Positions 26,973-40,285 of a stretch of 64,000 nucleotides of DNA are shown here, piece by piece. Both the position numbers and the translations under genes were made by a program. The notes under the pieces are model-generated. The model was not told the DNA's origin. It made no database searches and saw only the letters and a program-made list of their open reading frames with translations. Each line of letters opens with the position of its first letter. Within the stretch, counting starts at the first letter, position 1. Source of the DNA: Amphibalanus amphitrite (lineage: Eukaryota > Arthropoda > Thecostraca > Balanomorpha > Balanidae); contig NW_024882320.1 of NCBI RefSeq assembly GCF_019059575.1, positions 62,001 to 126,000 on the forward strand, in the 5' to 3' direction.

Positions 26973-28628
26973 ATGAAGCTGTTCGTGGCTGCCGCTCTCC
27001 TGGCCCTGGTGGCATCCGTGCCACTCGACTCCCAGGTCGAGGACCAGGATGAGCTCGAGATGCACGAGGTCTGGGGCTCCTCCTACAAGGAGGTCCAGGA
27101 GAAGATGGGCCTAAACAACGGCGCCTCGCTCTCCCGCTCCGGTCAGGTGTTGGACTCGGTCTTCTGGAAGAGCATCGCCCAGGAGATCATCCAGACCAAG
27201 CTGAACGACAAGGTGTACCACCACCAGGCCAAGAACGCCATCCTGTTCATCGGTGACGGTATGTCGATCCACACCCTTGCTGCCGCCAGGAAGCAGAAGG
27301 GCCTGCTGCACGGAGCTGATATTCCCGAGCACACCATGCTGTCGTGGGAGAAATTCCCGTACACTGGTCTCTCCAAGACGTACAACTGCGATCGCTGGAC
27401 GGCCGACTCCGCCTCCACGGCCACCGCCTACCTGACCGGCGCCAAGGGCAACTTCCTCACGGTCGGCGTCGACTGCTCCGTCCTCATCTGGAACTGTGAT
27501 GCCGTGAACGAGGCCTCCTCGCCCAAGTCGATCCTCCGCTACGGAGTGGAGGCCGGTAAGTGGGTTGGTCTGGTGTCCACCGCCCGTATCACGCACGCCT
27601 CTCCCGCTGCCACCTTCGGCCACACTGCTTACCGTACCTGGGAGTCGGATGCCGACTTCGTCGCCATGGAATGGATGACTGGACCCGTCAAGGAATCGTG
27701 CAAGAACGTCATGAAGGATCTGTCTACCCAGTTCGTCGAGCGTGAAGGTATCGACATCAACGTCGCCTTCGGTGGCGGCTGGGGCAAGTTCACGCCGAAG
27801 GAGGTCGAGGGTGGCTCCCGTCTGGACGGTCGTGACCTGATCCAGGAGTGGAAGGACAAGCAGGCCTCCCTGGGACGCAGCTACGCCTACCTCACCACCA
27901 AGGATGAGCTGAACAACTTTGACGCCACCTCTGCCGACTACGTGCTGGGTCTGTTCAGCCGCAGCCACATGCAGTACCGCGCTTTCCAGACTCCCGACGA
28001 CGTCAACCTGACGGAGATGGTGAAGAAGGCTCTGGAGATCCTGAAGCGCGGACCGAACGGCTTCGTGCTGTTCGTGGAGGGCGCCAAGATCGACCACGGC
28101 CACCACTACGGCAACGCGTACACGGCCATCGACGAGACCATCGAACTGGAGGAGGTCGTCCAGTACGCTGTGGACAACACCGACGAGTCGGACACCCTCA
28201 TCGTCGTCTCCTCCGATCACGCTCACACCTTCAAGATCAACGGCTACCCGGAGCGCGGCCTGGACATGTACGGACCCGCCTCGTTCCTGGCCGGCGGTAT
28301 GCAGAAGGGCGGTCCGCCGCCCAGCCTGCCGTACCCGATCCTGCAGTACGCCAACGGTCCGGGCGGCACCCGCACCAAGGAGGAGCAGGACGCCAAGCGC
28401 GCCGCCCTCACAGAGACCGGGCCCGACGCCGAGTGGCGCGACCCGCACTACAAACAGTTCGCCGGCATCTACCTGCCCAAGGAGACCCACGGCGGAGATG
28501 ACGTGGGCATCTTCGCGCGCGGTCCGGGCGCCCACCTGCTGCGTGGCAGCCTGGAGGAGAATTACATCCACCACGTCATCAACTGGGCCCTCTGCCAGGG
28601 AGACTACCTCACCGTCTGCGACGAGTAG
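26973..28628 (+). CDS. Alkaline phosphatase 2, secreted, intronless
   Basis: 551 residues, paralogue of the minus-strand copy at 16691-18352. Signal peptide MKLFVAAALLALVASVP; metal Asp in FIGDGMS; nucleophile Ser146 in TADSASTATAYLTG; metal ligands in HASPAATFGHTAYRTW, VEGAKIDHGHH, SSDHAHTF and ETHGGDDVGIF. It ends QGDYLTVCDE with no GPI-attachment tail, so secretion is likely. The two proteins match at all but two positions across residues about 132-400, yet differ clearly in the first 130 and last 150 residues. The core also matches at the DNA level. The TATA box, initiator and absence of introns indicate a compact gene suited to strong expression. Substrate and tissue are unknown; roles in biomineralisation or gut are possible. 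Confidence 0.95.
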   Translation: MKLFVAAALLALVASVPLDSQVEDQDELEMHEVWGSSYKEVQEKMGLNNGASLSRSGQVLDSVFWKSIAQEIIQTKLNDKVYHHQAKNAILFIGDGMSIHTLAAARKQKGLLHGADIPEHTMLSWEKFPYTGLSKTYNCDRWTADSASTATAYLTGAKGNFLTVGVDCSVLIWNCDAVNEASSPKSILRYGVEAGKWVGLVSTARITHASPAATFGHTAYRTWESDADFVAMEWMTGPVKESCKNVMKDLSTQFVEREGIDINVAFGGGWGKFTPKEVEGGSRLDGRDLIQEWKDKQASLGRSYAYLTTKDELNNFDATSADYVLGLFSRSHMQYRAFQTPDDVNLTEMVKKALEILKRGPNGFVLFVEGAKIDHGHHYGNAYTAIDETIELEEVVQYAVDNTDESDTLIVVSSDHAHTFKINGYPERGLDMYGPASFLAGGMQKGGPPPSLPYPILQYANGPGGTRTKEEQDAKRAALTETGPDAEWRDPHYKQFAGIYLPKETHGGDDVGIFARGPGAHLLRGSLEENYIHHVINWALCQGDYLTVCDE

Positions 28629-29188: not shown

Positions 29189-31503
29189 TTTTTTTTTTTT
29201 TTTTTGCTCGGTCGGCCTAGTGCCATACCCGAGCAGGGGGCAGTTACTCCGGCAATTTTCGACGGGCAGCAAGTCTTACGTTAAACCGGTTTATGTGAAC
29301 CCGGTAGCAAAAACAGCGTGGGATCCTATCTTAATGTGGAATCAAAGCTAAGGGAGGTACTTACGTGTATAGCCAAAGAGCCGAGATGTCTGGAGTCGCA
29401 AACACAACAGTGGGAATGACTTTTATTAACAATACATAATAGACATGAACACTTGTGAGCTGGTGTCAGTGTAATGGAGCCGGGAAGCTTTCATCGCACT
29501 GACAGAAGGTATAAGACCTTCTAGGCTCCAGCCCCCCGGCGGGGCCTTGTTGTGGGGTGTAATGGTCGGGAGAAAAAGTCCTAAATAATAAAAAACCCGA
29601 CGCCTAACGCAAAGGGCAAAAACCTCGCACCTAAGCCAAAACGGCGCGAGGGAAAAAGCCCTGTAACCGCGATTAATTAATGTGTGAGTTTGGGGGTGAG
29701 CCGGAAGACGAGGGCTCTGATTAGCGTTTTAGGGGCGGCAGCCGCGGCCCTAACACGCTAAAGGCTCTTGATGATCCGAGCGTCGGCGAGAAAGACGAAC
29801 AGAAGGTCGTGGATATACGGATGAGTGTCGCCCAGGAGAGTCGGAAGGTCGAGAGAGAGTCCATGTGTGTTAATGTATTGTACTATATGTCTGCGGTGTT
29901 GGTGTAGGTGTGGGCAGTGGAGGAGGAAGTGTGAGATGGTGTAGCGTGGGTGGTCGCGGCAGTGGTGAGTGGTGACATATGGGTGGAGGTGCTCTGTCCA
30001 GGATGTAGTTGTGGGTGAGTTGTGTGTGGCCGAGCCGGAGCCTGGCTAGGACTCTCTCTTTGATCCTTGTGTTTTGATGGGAAGAGTAGAAATGGCAAAA
30101 GTTTCGATTTAATGGAGAAGAGATGTGGTGTATGATCATCTATCCAGCATTTTTGGCGGTATCTCTGGAAGGCACGGAAGAGCGAAGACAGAAAATCCGG
30201 AAGGGGGAGAGCGAGATGATTTCGAGATGGGAGATGAAGACCTTCTTTGGCTAGCTTGTCCGCTTTTTCATTCCCCTGTATTCCAACGTGGGACGGAATC
30301 CACAGGAGAATGACGTGTTTGTTTTCATCGGTAAAGCCAATAATCATCTTTTTTATTTTATAAACGATTTCGTTTTTTTTTCCATTTTTCTGTGAGCTAT
30401 TGCCTTTACCGATGAAGCTGAGTCTGTGCAGATCACAGCCTTTTCTATGTTTTTCGATGAGACATATTTGAGTGCTGAGTGAATGGCTATCAACTCAGCA
30501 CTAAATATGCTATGGTCGTCGTGTAGCCTACTTGTTTTGTTATGATGGTCAGATGTGACACAAACTGAACCATCTGTATATATGTATGCATAGTCTTTAT
30601 GTTCTTCTTTATGCTCATAGAAAAGTTGAATGCTTTCTTCTTTTGTGACTTTTGATTTTGCCTCTGCGTACAGGAATGCAATATTCTCTATGGCTGGCAG
30701 AAAGAAAGAAGAGATGGGTGGCCGATGAAAAATAGATGGAAAATCCAACTGGAAATCACTGAGTGTCCTTTCTATGCGATAGGCGATTATCGGGTATTTG
30801 AGTTGGGCCGTTGTGGGAGGGTCGTCCGTATATCGATTGGAGACAATGCGGTGCGAAGGCGAATAAGGGGACAAGAAAGTGCGCGCATAGAAGCGAAGGA
30901 GTTGGAGTTTACGGCGGTGAGAGAGAAGAGGAATATTACATTCTGCGTGGAGAGCCTTGATATTTGTGGTGCATTGGGCTCCTGTAACTATACGCAGGGC
31001 CTTATTTTGTATAACTTGAAGTGATTCGATCTGATTAGAAGCTATATCATCAAATAGAAAACTGTTGTAATCCAGGATAGGACGGATTAGGGAAGTGTAT
31101 AGGTTAAGGAGGGTGCTGCGATCAGCACCCCAATCCTTTCCTGCTATACACTTAAGTATGTTGAGGCGCCTAGTGCAACGCATTTTAACGTCTTCAAAGT
31201 GATGTTTAAAGGAGAGTCTACTATCTAGTGTGATGCCGAGGTATTTGAACGTTTTAACGTATTTGATAGTTTGGTTCTTTACTTTAAGTTCGGTATCAAA
31301 TTTAAAACGGGACTTATGGGAGAATATAAGTGCTACTGTTTTGCTGGGCGACAAGACTAGGCCCCATTTATCGCACCAGCTATGAATATCCTCCATTGCG
31401 TTTTGAACGGAGGCAAAAGCCGAGTCAATGTTTCTTCGCGTTACCCAAATGGCCACATCATCGGCAAAAATAGAATGCTTAAGGCTACTAGCGCTCGCAC
31501 GCG
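29189..31503 (-). mobile_element. 5'-truncated LINE with RNase H (I-superfamily type)
   Basis: A 24-25-bp target duplication (29164-29188 and 31504-31528) encloses a minus-strand LINE ending in 17 A (T run 29189-29205). The element starts inside RT, just before the FADDVAIW block, so more than half of ORF2 is missing. The target is a near-perfect palindrome of GCGTGGGTGAGCGCG type. RNase H after RT is found in the I, R1, LOA and Tad groups; the exact clade was not resolved. Confidence 0.88.
29758..31503 (-). pseudogene. LINE ORF2 remnant: RT C-terminal half, RNase H, zinc-finger tail
   Basis: From the 5' end: FADDVAIW (RT catalytic block), TFKYLGITLDSRLSFKHH and QNKALRIVTGAQ (RT thumb), then RNase H with YTDGSV, AELIAIHSALK and CTDSASS. 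A break at a run of nine A near 30380 shifts the frame. RNase H then resumes as LLWIPSHVGIQGNEKADKLA. A further shift near 30075 leads to ERVLARLRLGHTQLTHNYIL, and another near 29940 to HFLLHCPHLHQHRRHIVQY, ending at a TAG at 29758-29760. At least three frame breaks mean it is not functional. Confidence 0.85.
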
Positions 31504-31528
31504 CGCGTGGGTGAGCGCGCACGCGCTC

Positions 31529-32870
31529 ACCCACGCGCCGCATCATGGTGGGCATCATGAGATAGTGGACAGTGGACACCCATTAGATCGGAAATTTTGG
31601 GGAGACGGTCGCTAAGCGTGTCCAAGTCCATATAAAGCGCTCTCTGTACCGACCTCATCTGGCCTTTAATGCAACCACTGCGACTAATCTGCCCTGTTAT
31701 TCATCGGGCATACGGACGTAGTCACGGATGTGGATAGTTCAACTCGATAGACGTGAATTTAGTTAGCCTGTCGCCTGTTGCTCTGCATCCCTTACCTACC
31801 ACAGTAGCCATTCAGTGATCTAAATTCCTGCGTGACTTGCAACTTTGCACCACTCCTCAACATCGTCTTCTAATTACACCGTGCACGTTATAAACACACG
31901 GTGTCCAAAGTCCGTTGTGTAACATTGGTTGTTTACTCAGTCGAGTGTCTGTGCCTGTCAGAGATCAGCCGTCGAGTGCTCTGTGGGTAGGTTATCTGGC
32001 CAGTCAAGTGGAGGGGGAGGGTTTCTACGCATGGGACACTAGTCAGTACGGCCCAGCGCTCAGTGGTCGCTGCTCAGTCTCGTGAGTGACGGCTCGGCGA
32101 GCGTTGTGCCTCTCTCCTGACGTGAGGTGAGTTCGAGGCAGAGGACGGTCGCCGTTAAACTATCGGCCTTATCGTGTCCTGTATCTGGCTCCTGTGGCTG
32201 TGTGTGTTCACCGTCCGTTTTTAGAAAAGATCGATATCGCGGGCGCAGATGCGTCGTGGGTATGTGTGCGATGCGATAACCGAGAGAGTTTGCTTACCTT
32301 ACCGTCGAGGTGCCAGCTGTAGCCCGGGGGCAGCTGGCGAGTCGACTCTGTGTCGATCGCGGTTGGCTGCTGGCTGGCAGCTTCGTCGGTATTCTAGTGA
32401 AATGCGATCGGTCTGTTGATCTGTAATGTTCGGCCGCACCCTGGGACAAGAGCCAACTCTGAGCATTGTTGAAGTTTCCGGCAGGGAAGGTTAGTTTGGC
32501 TGGGTATTCAATTTGTAAAATGCGTTTTCCTGCATCTGCATTTCTCCGAGATGCTCGAGGGTTTGAGAGTTTTCAGGTAACATCTCCATCCAGTCTGGGA
32601 TATTGTTGCCGCCTTTCGCATTTGTTGGTCCTGCTGCTGCTGTCATGGAGGGTGGTGCCGACGCTGGGGCTGCAGCGAACCTTTTCGGACGCAGGACGTC
32701 TGCTGTATATCCGTTCCTACTGTGCTACTCTTATTGAGTTGACGTTTATGTTATCCAATTTATGCGGATTGGATATTCGTTTTAGATGTGTAAAAGACTG
32801 TGCTGTTAACTGTGAAGTGTGCGACAGCAATCTCAACTCCCGAGTCCCGCCTTCCCTCAGAGCGGCCACG
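31529..32870. other. Intergenic and 5' region of the selenoprotein L gene
   Basis: No separate gene supported. An in-frame upstream ATG at 32466 would extend the selenoprotein by 135 residues of low-complexity, cysteine-rich sequence with no recognisable domain, so I treat it as 5' UTR. Promoter elements were not identified. Confidence 0.4.
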
Positions 32871-35800
32871 ATGCCGTCGGTGGAGCCAGTGCTGACCGAG
32901 GCAGCGGTCCTCGCCGAAACGATAGAGGCCACCATCGCAGCCGCCGAGCAGGAGCTCACCAAAGGTAGGAGACTAGTCGGCTGAGGAACTTGGCAGAGTT
33001 GGGAGAGACTGGTTGGCTGAGGAGAATAAAACACTTGCTTCCGTGTACGCTGTTCGTTCATTGTTTCTTTAACGAAACTTGACCCGCTTTTTTGCGTCGT
33101 GCCTGGCAATCACGGTGTAAGATGATCGTGTCATGGGCGTATTAGATTGACAATTAATCATGTTTCAGTGACCCTCGATGAATTCATCAGCAACAAGATC
33201 GGAATGTTCGGGAAACTAATCGGGGAGTATGCTCGTCTCTTCGAAAGGTCAGTGGGAGATAGTACTGGGACTAAGTTCTGTAAGATCTGTCAATAAGTCG
33301 ATTTTTATAAAACCGACTGGTCCGTCAAGAGCTAAATCTCGTCAGATTTCTTGCTATATGAACCCCTTGGGTCGTTACGCCTTTCCTGAAAACTTTCCCA
33401 AATATTTACAAGTTCACCGTCTAACTGCGAGTTGCCCCCTGCCCTGCAGCTGTAGGGTCCACCCACTGTCCACCGTCTTACCGTCAGTTGCCCCCTACCC
33501 TGCAGCTGTGGTGTCCACCCACTGTCCACCGTCTTACCGCGAGATGTGTCCCCTCCCCGGCCGCTGTGGGGTCCACTCACTGTCCACCGTCTTACCGCCA
33601 GTTGTCCCTACCCTACAGCTGTGGGGTCCACCCACTGTCCGCCGTCTTACCGCGAAATGTGTCCCCTCCCTGGCAGCTGCGGGGTCCACCCACCGTCCGC
33701 CGTCTTACCGCCAGTTGTCCCCTCCCTGGCAGCTGCGGGGTCCACTCCCGGGAAGAGCTCGATGAGCTGGTCCGACGGCAGGTCGGCCAGCCCGGTAGCC
33801 GGCAGATCTTCTCCGCAATGGAGCACCTGCTGGACATGGAGGTGAGTGATAAAGAGGTTGTGTCGATCTTAAACCGAGCAGAAATGGTTCTACGATGCTT
33901 CCGTAATTTCTAATCGCAGCGACTTTATTTATGCGACGATTGGGAAGTAAAATGTTTAAATTACATGAATTCATTATATTCCAGCATTGTTTCCCTCTCG
34001 TGATATTGTAGCTCGGCCATCGATGTGAGTATAACGGATGCCTTTGCATTAGGGAGCACATACTGTGTTTGTCATGTTGTTTGTTTAGCTGAGTACCGGT
34101 GCAGAGTGCCGGCAGTGTTAAATAGGCCTACCGTTATGTCGCGACTGGAATTGTGCTCCGTCATCCTGACAGGGATTAAGCACTGAATTGACTACGAAAT
34201 AGGATGTTTTTAGGAACAGGGCGAAAACCGTATCACATCAACGCCCATGATTCGCCTTCAGTTCGTTCGCGATCCGGCGTTTTGATCAGGTCACATCAGC
34301 TTGTAGGCCAGTTGCCAGTGTTTTAAACGTCTAAACACATTAACCGCTATGCAACTATGAAACTTCAGCAATGTAATGTACCTAGTGACTCAGTTTGACA
34401 TAGAACGGTAACATTGGGAATGGTGGGCTTTGCTTGCACTATTTATGCAGCACTACCGGCATTATTCGCAACGTTGGCGTCCAAAGTACACAAAGTTCAC
34501 TCCTCAGAATGTTGTCTGTTGATGCTTGTGCAGGCGTGAAGCGTCTGCTAGGCTCTAGAGTAGCCCTAGTGATACGATAGATCACTTCTGGCATAGGAGT
34601 CATTTGCAACGTTTTCGCACTAGCGTTCCCCGATGATTCTCCCTAAACACAGCCCCCTGTGATATCGCCTGACCCCTACCGGTTCCCTTTCAGAGTGAGT
34701 GGGACCACTTTGTGCTCGATCTGGACGGCCGGCTGGGTTCGGACGGCCGCCAGCCGCCCCCGCTGCTCTCTCCCGCTCCGTGCTCTCTGCAGCTGACGGA
34801 CGCGCTCAGCGGAGAGCCGTGCCGCCTGGCGGACACCCCGGGAACTAGGCTGCTGGTGCTGCTCCGCCACTTCGCCTGACTTCCGTGACGAGATCACGTG
34901 GCACAGATACAGCAGCAGAAGGTGGGAAACGGGCAGCTGAGCGGTCCTTCTAATGCTGTGTTCGCTGACATCCCGGGACTTTGTCCTGATTTCTTTTTTT
35001 GCCATCCGGCCTCGAAGCACCGTTCGATAGCCCTAGTGTTTCGGTTGCCCTTTATCGTATCTGTCAGCGTTGGATATGAGCTATTTTTGTTTTCATGTGT
35101 ATATGTTGGCTACCGATAAACACATTCGATGTGTTCCCCCTCCCGTCGTCTCTCCCGTTGAGATAGCACGGCCAGTCTGGCTACTGTCACAGCTTATCCC
35201 TGTGCATACGGTGTGCCGTAAATGTGTCATGAAACCGTGACCGGTATATGACTCCCTATTCCCTAACTCCCTCTCCTTCCGCAGGCCGAGTTCGGTCGTC
35301 TGCGCTGTTCTGTGCTGGTGGTCTCGTTTGGCGCCCGGGAGGGGGCGCTCCGCTGGCTGGCTGATACGGGCTGCGAGTTCCCGCTGCTGCTGGACCCCGA
35401 GCGGCAGCTGTATCGCGCCCTCGGACTGGCCAGGTCCATCGCCAAGGTAGGAGGACGCGCCGACCGCCGTTGCAGTACTAGCGGTAAGGTAGATCATAAT
35501 GGCATGGCATGTCGTGAAGTTAATCTGCCCTCTTTTGATTGGCTACGTACTTTTCGTTTACGGGGAATCGAAGGAGTGGGCCAGTTTTCCCTTTCATGAC
35601 TGATTTTCCTTTTTGACAGCGTTCACCCGTATTCATTCATTTGGCTTGCCTAAGTTATAGCCTGTCATATTTCATCTTCTACCCTGTAACCTGCACTTCC
35701 GATTTTCGCTATATACGATTCCCTTTACCACTCGTGGTTGGTCTGTCGTCATCGGCCAGGCACACACCCCAATGTCTATTTACCCCTGCTACACCCCCAC

Positions 35801-36636
35801 CTCACCTTCCGGTGCACTGTGTTATTTCTCCGCTCCGACCGTCAGTGGACGGTTTATCTCCACACACCGCCCGCCGCGGTCACATGTGGATCTCTAAACT
35901 GAGCCCGGGAAGGAACATCTGTGGTCGACACCGGCCCGATACCGCCGGGGCGTCCGCTCTGCCGCCGCTGCACGGGCCGCTGTGTTTGTGTGAATGGATA
36001 GATCGACTACATACAGAGTCGACGGGAGGTCGGATTCGTAGGGTCGGTTGGGGATGGTGCGAGGTCGGGACTCGGGATGGCGCTTCGGATGGTTGGCTGG
36101 ACAAAGAGCAGTGTCTTTTCGCAGGCTTCTAGCAGCTGCATGCGGTACTCTGACCGGTTTGTCATTTGTTGAACAAAATCGTTTATTGGAATTTGGATGT
36201 AAGCTAGCCGCATTGCCTTCAGCCATGAAGGCTTTTTACGTATTTCCATACAATCTAGCGAATCCATCCCTGTCTGGATCCCGCACAACTCAATTCACCC
36301 CGCCGGTTTTCCTCTTTCCCCTCCCGTTAAGCTTTCCTCCCCTCTTTTCAGCTTCCCTCCCCTCTGTCTTCTCACGTCCTCCCCCCCCCCCCTCCCTCTC
36401 ACCAGGTGTGGCAGCACAGCACTCTCCAGTACTACGGCGGCCAGAAGGCTGCCGGCCGGCCCCTGCCCGCCGCCTACACGGGTGTAGAGGACGACCCTCA
36501 TCAGATGGGCGGCGACTTTATAGTGGACGGCTCCGATCGTCTCGTTCTGGTGCACTGTAGTACCAGCCCGCCGGACCGGCCTACCGTTCCCGCACTGCTC
36601 ACCGCCGTCCGAGCGCTGGATGAACAGAGCCAGTAG
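32871..36636 (+). CDS. SelL: Selenoprotein L with two in-frame UGA (UxxU), six exons
   Basis: Peroxiredoxin/thioredoxin-like redox protein with a diselenide-type UxxU centre. Exons: 32871-32964, 33169-33247, 33733-33841, 34694-34921, 35285-35446 and 36406-36636; all junctions are GT-AG and in phase, giving 903 bases (300 residues plus stop). In exon 4 the conserved LLVLLRHFA is followed by UGA-Leu-Pro-UGA (34877-34888, residues 156 and 159) and then RDHVAQIQQQK, which splices in frame to AEFGRLRCSVLVVSFGAREG. The later exons carry LLLDPERQLYRALGLARS and DPHQMGGDFIVDG...LVLVHCSTSPPDRP, conserved peroxiredoxin-like blocks. Reading either UGA as stop would delete the second half, which is clearly coding. 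SelL is known from aquatic animals and some marine bacteria. The exon 4 donor (GTGGGA) is weak. The SECIS element must be in the 3' UTR; see the candidate entry. Confidence 0.93.
33414..33750 (+). repeat. Six tandem copies of the SelL exon 3 splice acceptor
   Basis: Period 55-58 bp. Each unit has a C/T-rich tract, CAG (CCG in the third copy) and then CTGYRGKGTCCAC, the same as the true exon 3 boundary at 33730-33745. The CAGs end at 33449, 33505, (33563 mutated), 33618, 33676 and 33732. Only the sixth (used) and fourth (114 bases upstream, open throughout) keep the reading frame. Confidence 0.88.
34877..34888 (+). other. Two selenocysteine codons, UGA-CTT-CCG-UGA
   Basis: Positions 34877-34879 and 34886-34888, two codons apart, in frame with exons before and after. 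The pattern matches the UxxU redox motif of selenoprotein L and replaces the CxxC of ordinary thioredoxin-fold relatives. One SECIS must serve both. Confidence 0.9.
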
Positions 36637-38174
36637 GTGGCGCTGAGGAGGTGGGCGGGTTGGTACTGGGGGCGCTAGTAGTGTGGCTCGTGTCGGAGCC
36701 CGGTAGAATGCTAGTCTAGTTCGAGCCCAGAATCGGCTGTGGTGCATAAGGCAATGAAATCAATGGAGAAGCTTCTGTAGAGCTAGCCGCTGCTTCTATA
36801 CGAAGTGCGAACATTTGCTTGCTTGGTTTTATGCTATGCTTGCTATTTTGTTTGCTGTTAAGGCCAATCCGTGTAGCTATAGCAGCTCGATGATTCATCG
36901 TTTGCAATGCTTTTGTCGTTTACGCAAAACCCAAAGGTGGGCATTTGAAAGCCATGCTTTGCTTCTAAATAGGCATGGTCGAAGCCTTGCTCGCCAATGT
37001 GACGCCATTTACGCCAGTAGCGCAGAAGCGTTTGCCTTGTAAAGTTAGTCCGGCTAGTCAGCGTCGAGACGGGATTGCCCGTCCCGTCCCCGAGTTGTCC
37101 GACAGTGGCGCCACGTATGAAGGCTTCTGGACAGCCCCGCCAGGGAGCCGGCAGCTGGAGAAATAGATGTCGCCACTGGCGCAATACTCAGGGATTGGAC
37201 GGGTATGCGATTGCAGCTCGAGGGAGTGTAACTGTGTTTGCAATATCAGGGAGCTTAATATCGGTCAGTAATTTGTAATGGTGTATTTGTTTCTTTTGTG
37301 GTGCATATTGTACTGTATGGTATGCTACCGATGTATAGTATAAGAATTGGTGGCATCTGTTTTCAATGGTTGAAAGGCGCATATCAAGGGTATGTACCTG
37401 CGAATTGCGCCGTCTGATTTTGAAATATAGTCCGGTCATTTTTGAAAATGTGTTCAATGTCTTTAAATGCACCCATTAAGAGAAGTGGAAAATTAAAACA
37501 GGGAAATTGTGTTCACATTCGTTAAAATGTTAAAATATTTATAGTCACCGTGAAAATGTGATTTCGACGTCTCACTCAAAGCGTGAAGTTAAACAGGACC
37601 TAGCTAATAGCTTGAAAGTATGAATGGTCATTGATCATTGATCATTCATGGTCGATACCAATGTCGCATCTATGTACGATTATGAACCACTTTTCATTGT
37701 CCTTTGTTGTTGAAATGAGAAAAAGAAAACAAATTATTAAGACTGACGCACCGATCGAAAGTGAAAACATCGATCGATCCCATTTACCTCTTAGGAATGT
37801 CGCTGTCGATATCGGTCTCCTCATCAACAGAAATCCTTCTACCCCTCCCCTCCCCGTGTGTGCCTTTCCCTGTCTGAGTCCCTTGTTGTCCGCCCGTGCC
37901 GGGTCGTTCCGCCGATAATTACCCGTTCCTCCCCTCTCACCACTATCCCCCTCTCTCTCTCCCTGCAGTCGGCGGAGGCACCGCGCGCATGACAGAGCAC
38001 CTGTGCCTACCTGCCGGGGCGCCGCCCCCTCTGCCCGCCGTCGTCCCTCCGAGCTGCAGACATCCCGAGCCTCTCCCGCCCGTGCGTCGTCGACTGCAGG
38101 GCGGCCGCCGGCGAGCGGCCGTCGCTCCCGAGCCCCCGCACCTGGACACTGGAGCGCCCTACCTGGCCGCTCTG
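36637..38174. other. SelL 3' UTR and gap before bark
   Basis: Contains the SelL 3' UTR, an ATTAAA at 37492-37497 as a possible poly(A) signal, and a TGATCATT-rich palindromic stretch near 37625-37650. The GC-rich block at 37969-38177 has a good acceptor-like start but no recognised protein. Confidence 0.4.
36936..36995 (+). promoter_or_regulatory. Candidate SECIS element in the SelL 3' UTR
   Basis: By hand the segment folds as helix I (GGTGGGC 36936-36942 with GCTCGCC 36989-36995), an internal loop, TGA 36946-36948 opposite GA 36981-36982, and helix II (GCCATGC 36951-36957 with GCATGGT 36973-36979). A 15-base apical loop contains AAA. The layout resembles a SECIS, but the quartet is TTGA rather than ATGA and the AA lies further from it than usual. 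It is 300 bases after the stop codon. Treat as provisional. Confidence 0.3.
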
Positions 38175-38195
38175 TGACGTCACCCGGTCACGTGA
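38175..38195 (+). promoter_or_regulatory. CRE plus E-box upstream of bark
   Basis: TGACGTCA (38175-38182) and TCACGTGA (38188-38195) are two perfect palindromes five bases apart, 150-170 bases before the bark start codon in a GC-rich block. They fit binding sites for bZIP and bHLH factors. Function is inferred from position only. Confidence 0.45.
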
Positions 38196-38347
38196 CCACG
38201 TTTAAACCTCCGCTGCGTACCGGCGGCGCTGGGCGGGCGGGCGGTTGGTCGGCGGCGACGGCTGGGCAGTCGGTCGGACGAGCGGGCAGTGTCGGGTGTC
38301 CGCGCGCGCTCCTGGGAGCACACGGCAGGGTCGTGCGCCGATTGGTG

Positions 38348-38605
38348 ATGGAGGAGGCGGCGCGGCGGCTGGTGCCGCTGTGGGCCGCGCTGCTGGTGGT
38401 GCCGCTGGTGCTGGTGTCTGCTCAGACCGAAGTGGGAGGTATCTACAGCCAACGGACGCGCTGGGAGCGCGCCCGTTCGCCCTATGTGGCCAGCAGCGAT
38501 GTGCTTATCACGGAGACGGGCGAGGTCGAGGTCGAGCCGGGCGTTGTGGTGGAGTTTCGACCCGGTATCGGTGTGACCGTGCGCGGCGGACGACTGGTCG
38601 CTGAG
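38348..38605 (+). CDS. bark: bark beetle/anakonda exon 1: signal peptide and first repeat
   Basis: 86 codons ending in phase 0 at a GTGAGT donor. The chain starts MEEAARRLVPLW, followed by a strongly hydrophobic signal peptide ending at VLVSAQT. The mature part has WERARSPYVASSDVLITETG and EPGVVVEFRPGIGVTVRG, the opening of the bark/anakonda ectodomain, where a beta-helix-type strand follows an acidic EVEVEPG stretch. In Drosophila, bark is a very large type I membrane protein needed for tricellular junctions and septate junction maturation. Phase and sequence join directly to exon 2 at 51746. Only about 138 residues lie in the window, so this is the 5' end of a long gene running right. Confidence 0.85.
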
Positions 38606-39320
38606 GTGAGTCCTCGGGGGGGGGGGGGACTGACACTGACACTGAGTTCTGACACGCTCTGACACTGACACTGACACTGAGACAGACACTGGAAGCGGGT
38701 GGGATTGACTGCTGGAACATTCCAGTTGCAACATACGTTGGCGTGTGATGGATCTGCTACCGAGGACTGTATTCCAGGAGTGTCAAATCATATTCATCTT
38801 TCAGCTGTTCTGGTTCATTTCAAAGCTTTATCACTTAGCTCCAAACTCCCGCTTCAAGAATCCGGGTTCAATGCAGTTGGGCTCATTGACATTTCCGTCA
38901 GCTCTGAAACCCTTCGGTCTCCCCGCATACCTGTAACCCGTATCACTGAGTAATGAGGTGCCGACGTATGGCCCGACTACCGTCCGCCGTTCCCCGTCCG
39001 CGGCCCCGTCAGTGCCGTCTTTGACACCGGGCGACCTTGACTCGCTGTTCGCGGCGGCAGCGACCGAGACCGGCTCGGGAATCCACCTACGTCGTCTCTA
39101 AAACGGTGGACTGTCCACAGTGGACTGAGTGGAAGGGTGCGGTATGCATATATTGGCTGAGGCTGGGGCAGACAGGTGCGGTTGTACGGAATTCGCGGGT
39201 TGAGCGAGTTGGTTTGGCACGTGACAGTTTTGTCAGAACGTCAACGGCCAGTGGATACCGGTTATGTCATGGGACAGACGAGGAAAGTGGCCTGCTGCGC
39301 GGTTCGAGCGGACTGAGTCA

Positions 39321-39367
39321 TGACGTCACGTCACCAAAGGGCTCGCCTAGACGTCACACTGACGTCA
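39321..39367. promoter_or_regulatory. Cluster of CRE-like sites in bark intron 1
   Basis: TGACGTCA at 39321-39328 and 39360-39367, with AGACGTCA between at 39350-39357. Three near-perfect copies in 47 bases exceed chance expectation. Enhancer role is inferred. Confidence 0.4.
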
Positions 39368-40093
39368 TGGGTGACATCTTGTAGATGGATTATTCACTTC
39401 ATAGGAATGTTGATTGAGAAGTATTTTTGATGACTAAGCCTTACCGTAAGCGTTTTTAACGGTTAATTATAATTGGCGTGATCTGTCAATTGTTGAGGAC
39501 AAGAAGATCCCTGGTGCGATTATTCATGAACCCGATTGCTTACTTCGTTCAAACTTTCTTACATTTTTCATCGCCTGACGTTGCATTTCAATGAGCATGA
39601 AGCGGTTGATTATTGTGCCTCCTTATTTGTTTAATGTTCCTAGGATTCATGGGTCTTTTTTATCGTTGATGTCCCTGTCGCCTTCGGCAATTTTGAATGG
39701 ATGCTCTGTTTCAGCGAGAGGCTCTGATGTATAGGTATTGTAACGTTTCATCGCCTGATGCAACTAATTAAGCTCGCTGCTTTACCAGCCTTTCTGCCTA
39801 CCTATAGATACAATGCCATGGGTCATTGCCTGCTCTTTCATTACACTGAAAATTAATTTAGTCATAGCGAGACGGCAACCACCATCCTCCAAATGGCACA
39901 CGAGCTCAGATCACGTGATATATCCCGGGGACGTATGTAATTGCACAGGTAACCTCACGTGACCCTTGCCCTGCCACCTGCTGGCGTGTGGTAGCCGTGC
40001 GGATGTGGGTGGACCAATCACTGATCGCCTGAGGGTGAAAGTACCAGCCAGAGTCGCTCCTGGCCGATGTTTTGTGGCGTGTTCCAACGGACA

Positions 40094-40285
40094 GTCCCAG
40101 TCAACACCCTGCTGGGGTAGAGAGGCCCGGGAAAGGGTTGTTGTTTCGAATAACATCTGAGTAGGACTAAAATCCCGCCCTGTCCAGGCGGCTTGTCCCA
40201 GTCAATACCCTGCTAGAATAAGGCTGGAGAAACGATTGTAGATTCCAATAACATCTGAGTGGAATCAAAATCCCGCTGCCCGGCC
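40094..40285. repeat. Tandem duplication of about 101 bp
   Basis: Two diverged copies begin GTCCCAGTCAAYACCCTGCT (40094 and 40195). Each contains AATAACATCTGAGT and ends in AAAATCCCGC. Nothing coding. Confidence 0.7.

Follow-up and report, generated by a model that had tools for sequence, protein, structure and literature searches.

The window analysed here, a 64-kb stretch of the genome of the barnacle Amphibalanus amphitrite (contig C823, positions 62001-126000, in an assembly of 807,550,619 bases and 2644 contigs), very probably carries a selenoprotein L (SelL) gene in working order, in which two in-frame UGA codons would both be read as selenocysteine (Sec) under the direction of one SECIS element in the 3′ UTR (37103-37178), giving a product of 300 residues. 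This reading is built on comparisons of sequence, among alleles, between two SelL genes of the same animal, and with relatives in the databases.

Gene structure and conservation of the reading frame

Six exons joined at GT-AG borders span 32871-36636 and amount to 903 nt, a frame of 300 residues (Table 1). The joined frame contains TGA at codon 156 (34877-34879), TGA at codon 159 (34886-34888), and the terminal TAG, and no other stops. The stretch 34877-34888 reads TGACTTCCGTGA; a preliminary description of this DNA had placed the two UGAs of a UxxU motif exactly there, and had held that the six exons stay in frame only if both are read as Sec, as is the case, the two TGAs being the sole internal stops in the 903 nt. 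Taken alone, the open frame 3′ of the second UGA is weak evidence, and a stop-free stretch after this codon was also obtained in 694 of 20000 base shuffles.

Table 1. Features of the SelL locus, with the corresponding hairpin of the second gene (window positions unless a locus is named)
Feature	Position	Strand	Basis or remark
SelL exon 1, from ATG	32871..32964	+	frame joining; identical in C72; matches RefSeq P0140
SelL exon 2	33169..33247	+	frame joining; C72 allele; matches P0140
56-bp tandem array, its units repeating the splice acceptor of exon 3	33415..33745	+	
SelL exon 3, begins at last acceptor of the 56-bp array	33733..33841	+	C72 allele; matches P0140
SelL exon 4, carries both UGA codons	34694..34921	+	frame joining; C72 allele
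UxxU motif, TGA CTT CCG TGA, codons 156-159	34877..34888	+	both TGAs kept in C72, C145 and C1315
SelL exon 5, 3′ of the UGAs	35285..35446	+	C72 allele; matches P0133
SelL exon 6, DPHQMGGDF and terminal TAG	36406..36636	+	C72 allele; matches P0133
Proposed SECIS hairpin	37103..37178	+	helix I 37103-37110 with 37171-37178; AUGA core from 37117
Proposed SECIS, helix II and apical loop	37122-37130 with 37148-37156; loop 37131-37147	+	fold scan, allele, SelL-B model
ATTAAA, possible poly(A) signal	37492..37497	+	sequence inspection
SelL-B SECIS-like hairpin, CC apical	L062 3086-3151 (C145); L002 3070-3135	minus on L062	without Rfam match

Contig C72 holds another copy of the gene, in which every exon border and both TGAs are retained. 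It aligns with the window in blocks, with gaps, from base 1 to 49,760 (50 kb of C72 compared), and the two are 85% identical over 33134-40176. A recent gene duplication was considered as the origin of this copy and set aside on account of that collinearity; C72 is more likely the other haplotype of the window region. The blocks differ by about 5-30% and further loci also occur in pairs, which suggests that the assembly contains very divergent, uncollapsed haplotypes.

Between the two alleles, codons 160-300 differ by 6 synonymous and 0 nonsynonymous changes; for codons 1-155 the respective counts are 10 and 6. The former pair of counts shows protein-level selection on the part that follows the UGAs, and it bears out the earlier claim that the downstream blocks, including DPHQMGGDF of exon 6, are coding.

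A diverged second gene, here called SelL-B, is found on contigs C145 and C1315, which are 99.65% identical to each other over 3.2 kb and are probably its two haplotypes. Counterparts of exons 2-6 were located, and one of five listed candidates for exon 1 is plausible. Over exons 4-6, the alignment of SelL-B with the window gene covers 206 residues. Two of these are the TGA sites; among the remaining 204, identity is found at 102 (about 50%), with the same codon used at 61 of these 102. Both TGAs are retained on C145 and on C1315, within the motif RHLA-U-QP-U-RRHV.

These observations bear on the simplest alternative, namely, that the first UGA is a true stop, the product is a helical protein of 155 residues, and exons 5-6 either belong to another gene or are a relic. 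This is how RefSeq has it. The model P0140 (LOC122366710, 155 aa) matches residues 1-155 at 100% identity and ends ...LLVLLRHFA, directly before the first UGA, while P0133 (LOC122379213), on the allelic contig, is a C-terminal piece that agrees with exons 5-6 from its own sixth residue. The gene of Pollicipes pollicipes is likewise annotated as two records (LOC119099625 and LOC119099623) on one contig of 81,816 bases, P0151, which ends RHFA, and P0135, the C-terminal half. Against this, nonsynonymous changes are absent after the UGAs where six synonymous ones have accumulated, SelL-B keeps both TGAs, and the relatives P0001, P0002, and P0005 have one continuous chain through the site; termination at the first UGA is therefore very improbable. 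With both UGAs read as Sec, public annotation truncates the gene in Amphibalanus and splits it in Pollicipes, the fate that the preliminary description had expected from standard gene prediction.

The surroundings of the gene have features of their own. The unit of the 56-bp minisatellite before exon 3 (5.9 copies) repeats the polypyrimidine tract, the AG acceptor, and the first bases of this exon. Four decoy acceptors upstream of exon 3 fit the motif in the window copy, and splicing to one of them, at 33619, would lengthen the exon by 114 nt and keep the frame; the C72 allele has another set of decoys, one of them likewise 114 nt upstream of exon 3. Just upstream of SelL lies an alkaline phosphatase gene (26973-28628; an uninterrupted frame of 551 codons, Pfam E 4.6e-110), whose best named match is from Pollicipes (86%), with an A. 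amphitrite record at 97% over 23% of the protein. Between the two genes, an open frame of 409 residues on the minus strand (30353-31582) matches reverse transcriptase over the cut-off and RNase H weakly, and from its sequence appears to be a piece of a retroelement. Near SelL-B, a long hairpin at 7368-7485 of L062 has a weak plant MIR169 score (29.1 bits vs a cut-off of 80) and is probably an ordinary inverted repeat.

Relatives, fold, and proposed chemistry

The spliced product matches the Pfam families AhpC-TSA_2 (E 2.5e-12) and AhpC-TSA (E 8.8e-12), and it has named relatives in fish: the gar protein P0003 aligns at 36% identity over 97% of the barnacle query (E 2.6e-40), and the fish relatives found by profile are named selenoprotein L by their sources. 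Alignments to SelL proteins span the whole barnacle product, its N-terminal part included. Both the peroxiredoxin-like, thioredoxin-like context of the motif and the assignment to SelL, as put forward in the preliminary description, are thus upheld by the protein searches, and the former also by the fold of the relative P0001.

How databases treat the UxxU site can be seen from 48 listed relatives, drawn from the only candidates that were scored, 7998 and 8000 sharing most words with the query: 9 end exactly at RHFA, 7 have WLPW, 5 have CLPC, and 27 have no visible site, among them gar P0003, which omits exactly the four motif residues. The seven WLPW entries look as if UGA had been translated as Trp. 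A 2026 survey of vertebrates, in the passage cited, places SELENOL among the families of which less than 1% of the genes are well annotated in Ensembl (PMC12822975). The truncated gene in Amphibalanus and the split one in Pollicipes illustrate how SelL can be lost by annotation, and the records of this biofouling model animal could be corrected.

In the AlphaFold model of the sea-star (Patiria) relative P0001 (mean pLDDT 94.0), a helical part (residues 13 to 113) precedes a thioredoxin-like fold; the motif occupies 164-167, and a helix runs over 165-176. Its sequence entry has CLPC at the UxxU site, which may stand for Cys or for Sec stored as Cys. The best PDB match of this model is the C44S/C47S mutant of human prostamide/prostaglandin F synthase (PGFS; E 2.8e-11, 23% identity), with a TM-score of 0.82 over the target and of 0.43 over the query, the latter because PGFS has no match for the N-terminal helical domain. 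The feature common to both is thus the thioredoxin-like fold with a CxxC-type site.

The barnacle product would accordingly be laid out as an N-terminal helical domain and a peroxiredoxin-like thioredoxin fold. The two Sec would stand where the first helix to follow the first long strand of this fold begins, which is the place of the CxxC in PGFS. The Sec pair probably cycles between a diselenide and two selenols, reducing a peroxide or a disulfide by two electrons. A diselenide between two Sec residues is ascribed to SelL in work cited by PMC2397514, in the part of that paper used here. The gene structure, the protein-level selection after the UGAs, the retention of both UGAs in the allele and in SelL-B, the tRNA-Sec of the genome, and the predicted fold of P0001 are observed; that the hairpin works as a SECIS, that Sec is in fact inserted, that a diselenide forms, and what is reduced are inferred from them.

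The candidate SECIS element and the selenocysteine machinery

The preliminary description did not cover the SECIS, an element that the proposed decoding needs, and the candidate at 37103-37178 is proposed here. It consists of helix I (CAGUGGCG/CGCCACUG), the AUGA core, helix II (GGCUUCUGG/CCGGCAGCU) with one U-C mismatch, GA, and the loop ACAGCCCCGCCAGGGAG, and lies 481 nt past the stop and about 0.9 kb past the first UGA in the spliced mRNA. This single hairpin would direct Sec insertion at both UGAs. Its fold stability is modest (z -1.82), and 9 of 200 shuffles fold as well. The 105 bases around it (37083-37187) are identical in the C72 allele, and three 100-column blocks from 36937 agree in 98, 99, and 99 positions of 100, against a regional level of 85%; allele identity drops sharply from about 37531.

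SelL-B has a very stable 3′ hairpin of its own (z -4.30), with an AUGA core, a helix II of nine pairs, CC opening the apical loop, and a mini-helix. A covariance model built from this element alone finds its best match in the 64 kb, on both strands, at 37107-37174 (18.8 bits, rough E 0.013), the next reaching 12.6 bits (E 0.71); on 102,724 other bases of the genome its best match is the allelic element (18.8 bits), followed by one of 12.0 bits. The score is not strong by itself, because the model gives the antisense of its own hairpin 22.5 bits, more than the window match. In an alignment of the two hairpins set by hand, the nine positions of helix II comprise four in which both partners change and pairing is kept, two in which one partner changes, two unchanged, and one that is the mismatch of the window copy.

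Rfam gave no match in 32000-40000 or 36600-38100 of the window, and in the SelL-B region it gave four weak matches, none of them to SECIS. The apical motif is usually AA and rarely CC, according to the text cited from PMC2874816; the window candidate has AC, neither of the two. A second SECIS scan that required AA or CC missed 37103-37178, which was found by an unconstrained fold scan and by the comparison with SelL-B.

It follows that the gene could be as described and its SECIS be another hairpin of the 3′ UTR, a possibility compatible with the main reading. The AC apex and the helix II mismatch of 37103-37178 are unusual, and a hairpin at 37371-37403 was the only match of the first scan in the 3′ region and the best window match of the second. 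The latter was rejected, its helix II having lost four bases in the allele, whereas 37083-37187 is unchanged there and is where the SelL-B model matches; we therefore consider a different SECIS unlikely. With 37103-37178 as the SECIS, Amphibalanus would have two old, diverged SelL genes, both of the UxxU type and both with non-AA apices (AC in the window, CC in SelL-B), and AC would work beside AA and CC. We put this forward tentatively, at somewhat less than even chances; since the SECIS-like elements of both paralogs escape Rfam, the gene pair is a natural experiment on the apical bases that a SECIS requires.

The preliminary description had also pointed to the Sec machinery as a check, and of this machinery tRNA-Sec and SecS-like exons were seen in the assembly. 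Two tRNA-Sec loci exceed the family cut-off (75.1 bits vs 47) and 11 further matches fall under it, in a search for which each of the 14 control genomes yielded some match and 5 of them yielded one over the cut-off. ARAGORN identifies both top loci as tRNA-Sec (anticodon TCA) and two lower ones as tRNA-Ser, and it reports no tRNA within the 64-kb window. SecS-like exons at contigs C90 and C19 account for 18 matches (3 with internal stops), which jointly cover most of the profile; they stay at exon level, none passing the whole-protein cut-off, because the search runs exon by exon. The larval proteome of A. amphitrite lists selenoprotein M, in the portion of PMC4678614 cited.

Decoding of the UGAs by a near-cognate ordinary tRNA (Trp, Cys, or Arg), without Sec, would equally give a continuous product under selection, and the SECIS assignment is only proposed. 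However, the UGAs coincide exactly with the redox positions that are occupied by Sec codons or Cys in bacterial relatives, the 3′ UTR has a SECIS-like hairpin, and the genome has tRNA-Sec, so that we regard such decoding as highly improbable and retain insertion of Sec at both codons as the very probable reading.

Comparison with known systems

SelL is tabulated for sponge, Trichoplax, Nematostella, Capitella, and amphioxus (PMC3473315, in the table cited, the species being our reading of its column letters) and reported from Ciona (PMC2874816), and among vertebrates it is given for fish only (PMC3316567, passage cited). Crustaceans retain many selenoproteins, as stated in part of PMC5330540. 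The host had been called arthropod-like, and a barnacle it is; the further argument that a UxxU protein, rare in itself, is informative in such a genome because many insects have lost selenoproteins was overstated, the surprise being only moderate because SelL is known in several invertebrate groups and crustaceans keep many selenoproteins. In the open-licence literature, none of the titles or abstract openings among the matches listed describes an arthropod SelL. An earlier report is possible, given this scope and a centipede genome paper whose 20 selenoproteins, by its cited text, are given in a supplement. The barnacle gene pair extends the family to an arthropod.

Bacterial Prx-like thiol:disulfide oxidoreductases with UxxC or UxxU motifs (a class taken from the part of PMC9312934 cited) have a domain homologous to barnacle SelL, but their matches begin at barnacle residue 96 or later and leave the N-terminal domain unmatched. 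The 56 bacterial loci found comprise 49 UxxC, 3 UxxU, 3 CxxC, and 1 UxxY, counts that are not a census since one of the two search patterns required Cys or Trp at both sites. The three UxxU loci (L040, L042, and L043), with TGA at both positions, are from Chloroflexota, and UxxU in this family is therefore not confined to animals. A scan of viral contigs gave 13 pattern matches and no relatives.

PGFS, which as its name implies reduces prostaglandin or prostamide H2, resembles SelL, as modelled for P0001, in fold and in the CxxC spacing (C44/C47 in the entry title) and differs in having Cys for Sec and in lacking a counterpart of the N-terminal helical domain. The closest system is SelL (SELENOL) of fish and aquatic invertebrates, which has the same two Sec two residues apart and aligns over the full length, N-terminal helices included. 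In fish, one 3′ UTR SECIS serves both Sec codons (PMC3316567, as cited above), and a single SECIS is proposed in the barnacle too. The barnacle differs from known SelL in its host, in having two paralogs, and in the apex of the proposed SECIS, AC in the window and CC in SelL-B. What is known, then, is the SelL family; what is new is that a single barnacle has two SelL genes, and that a SECIS candidate has an AC apex.
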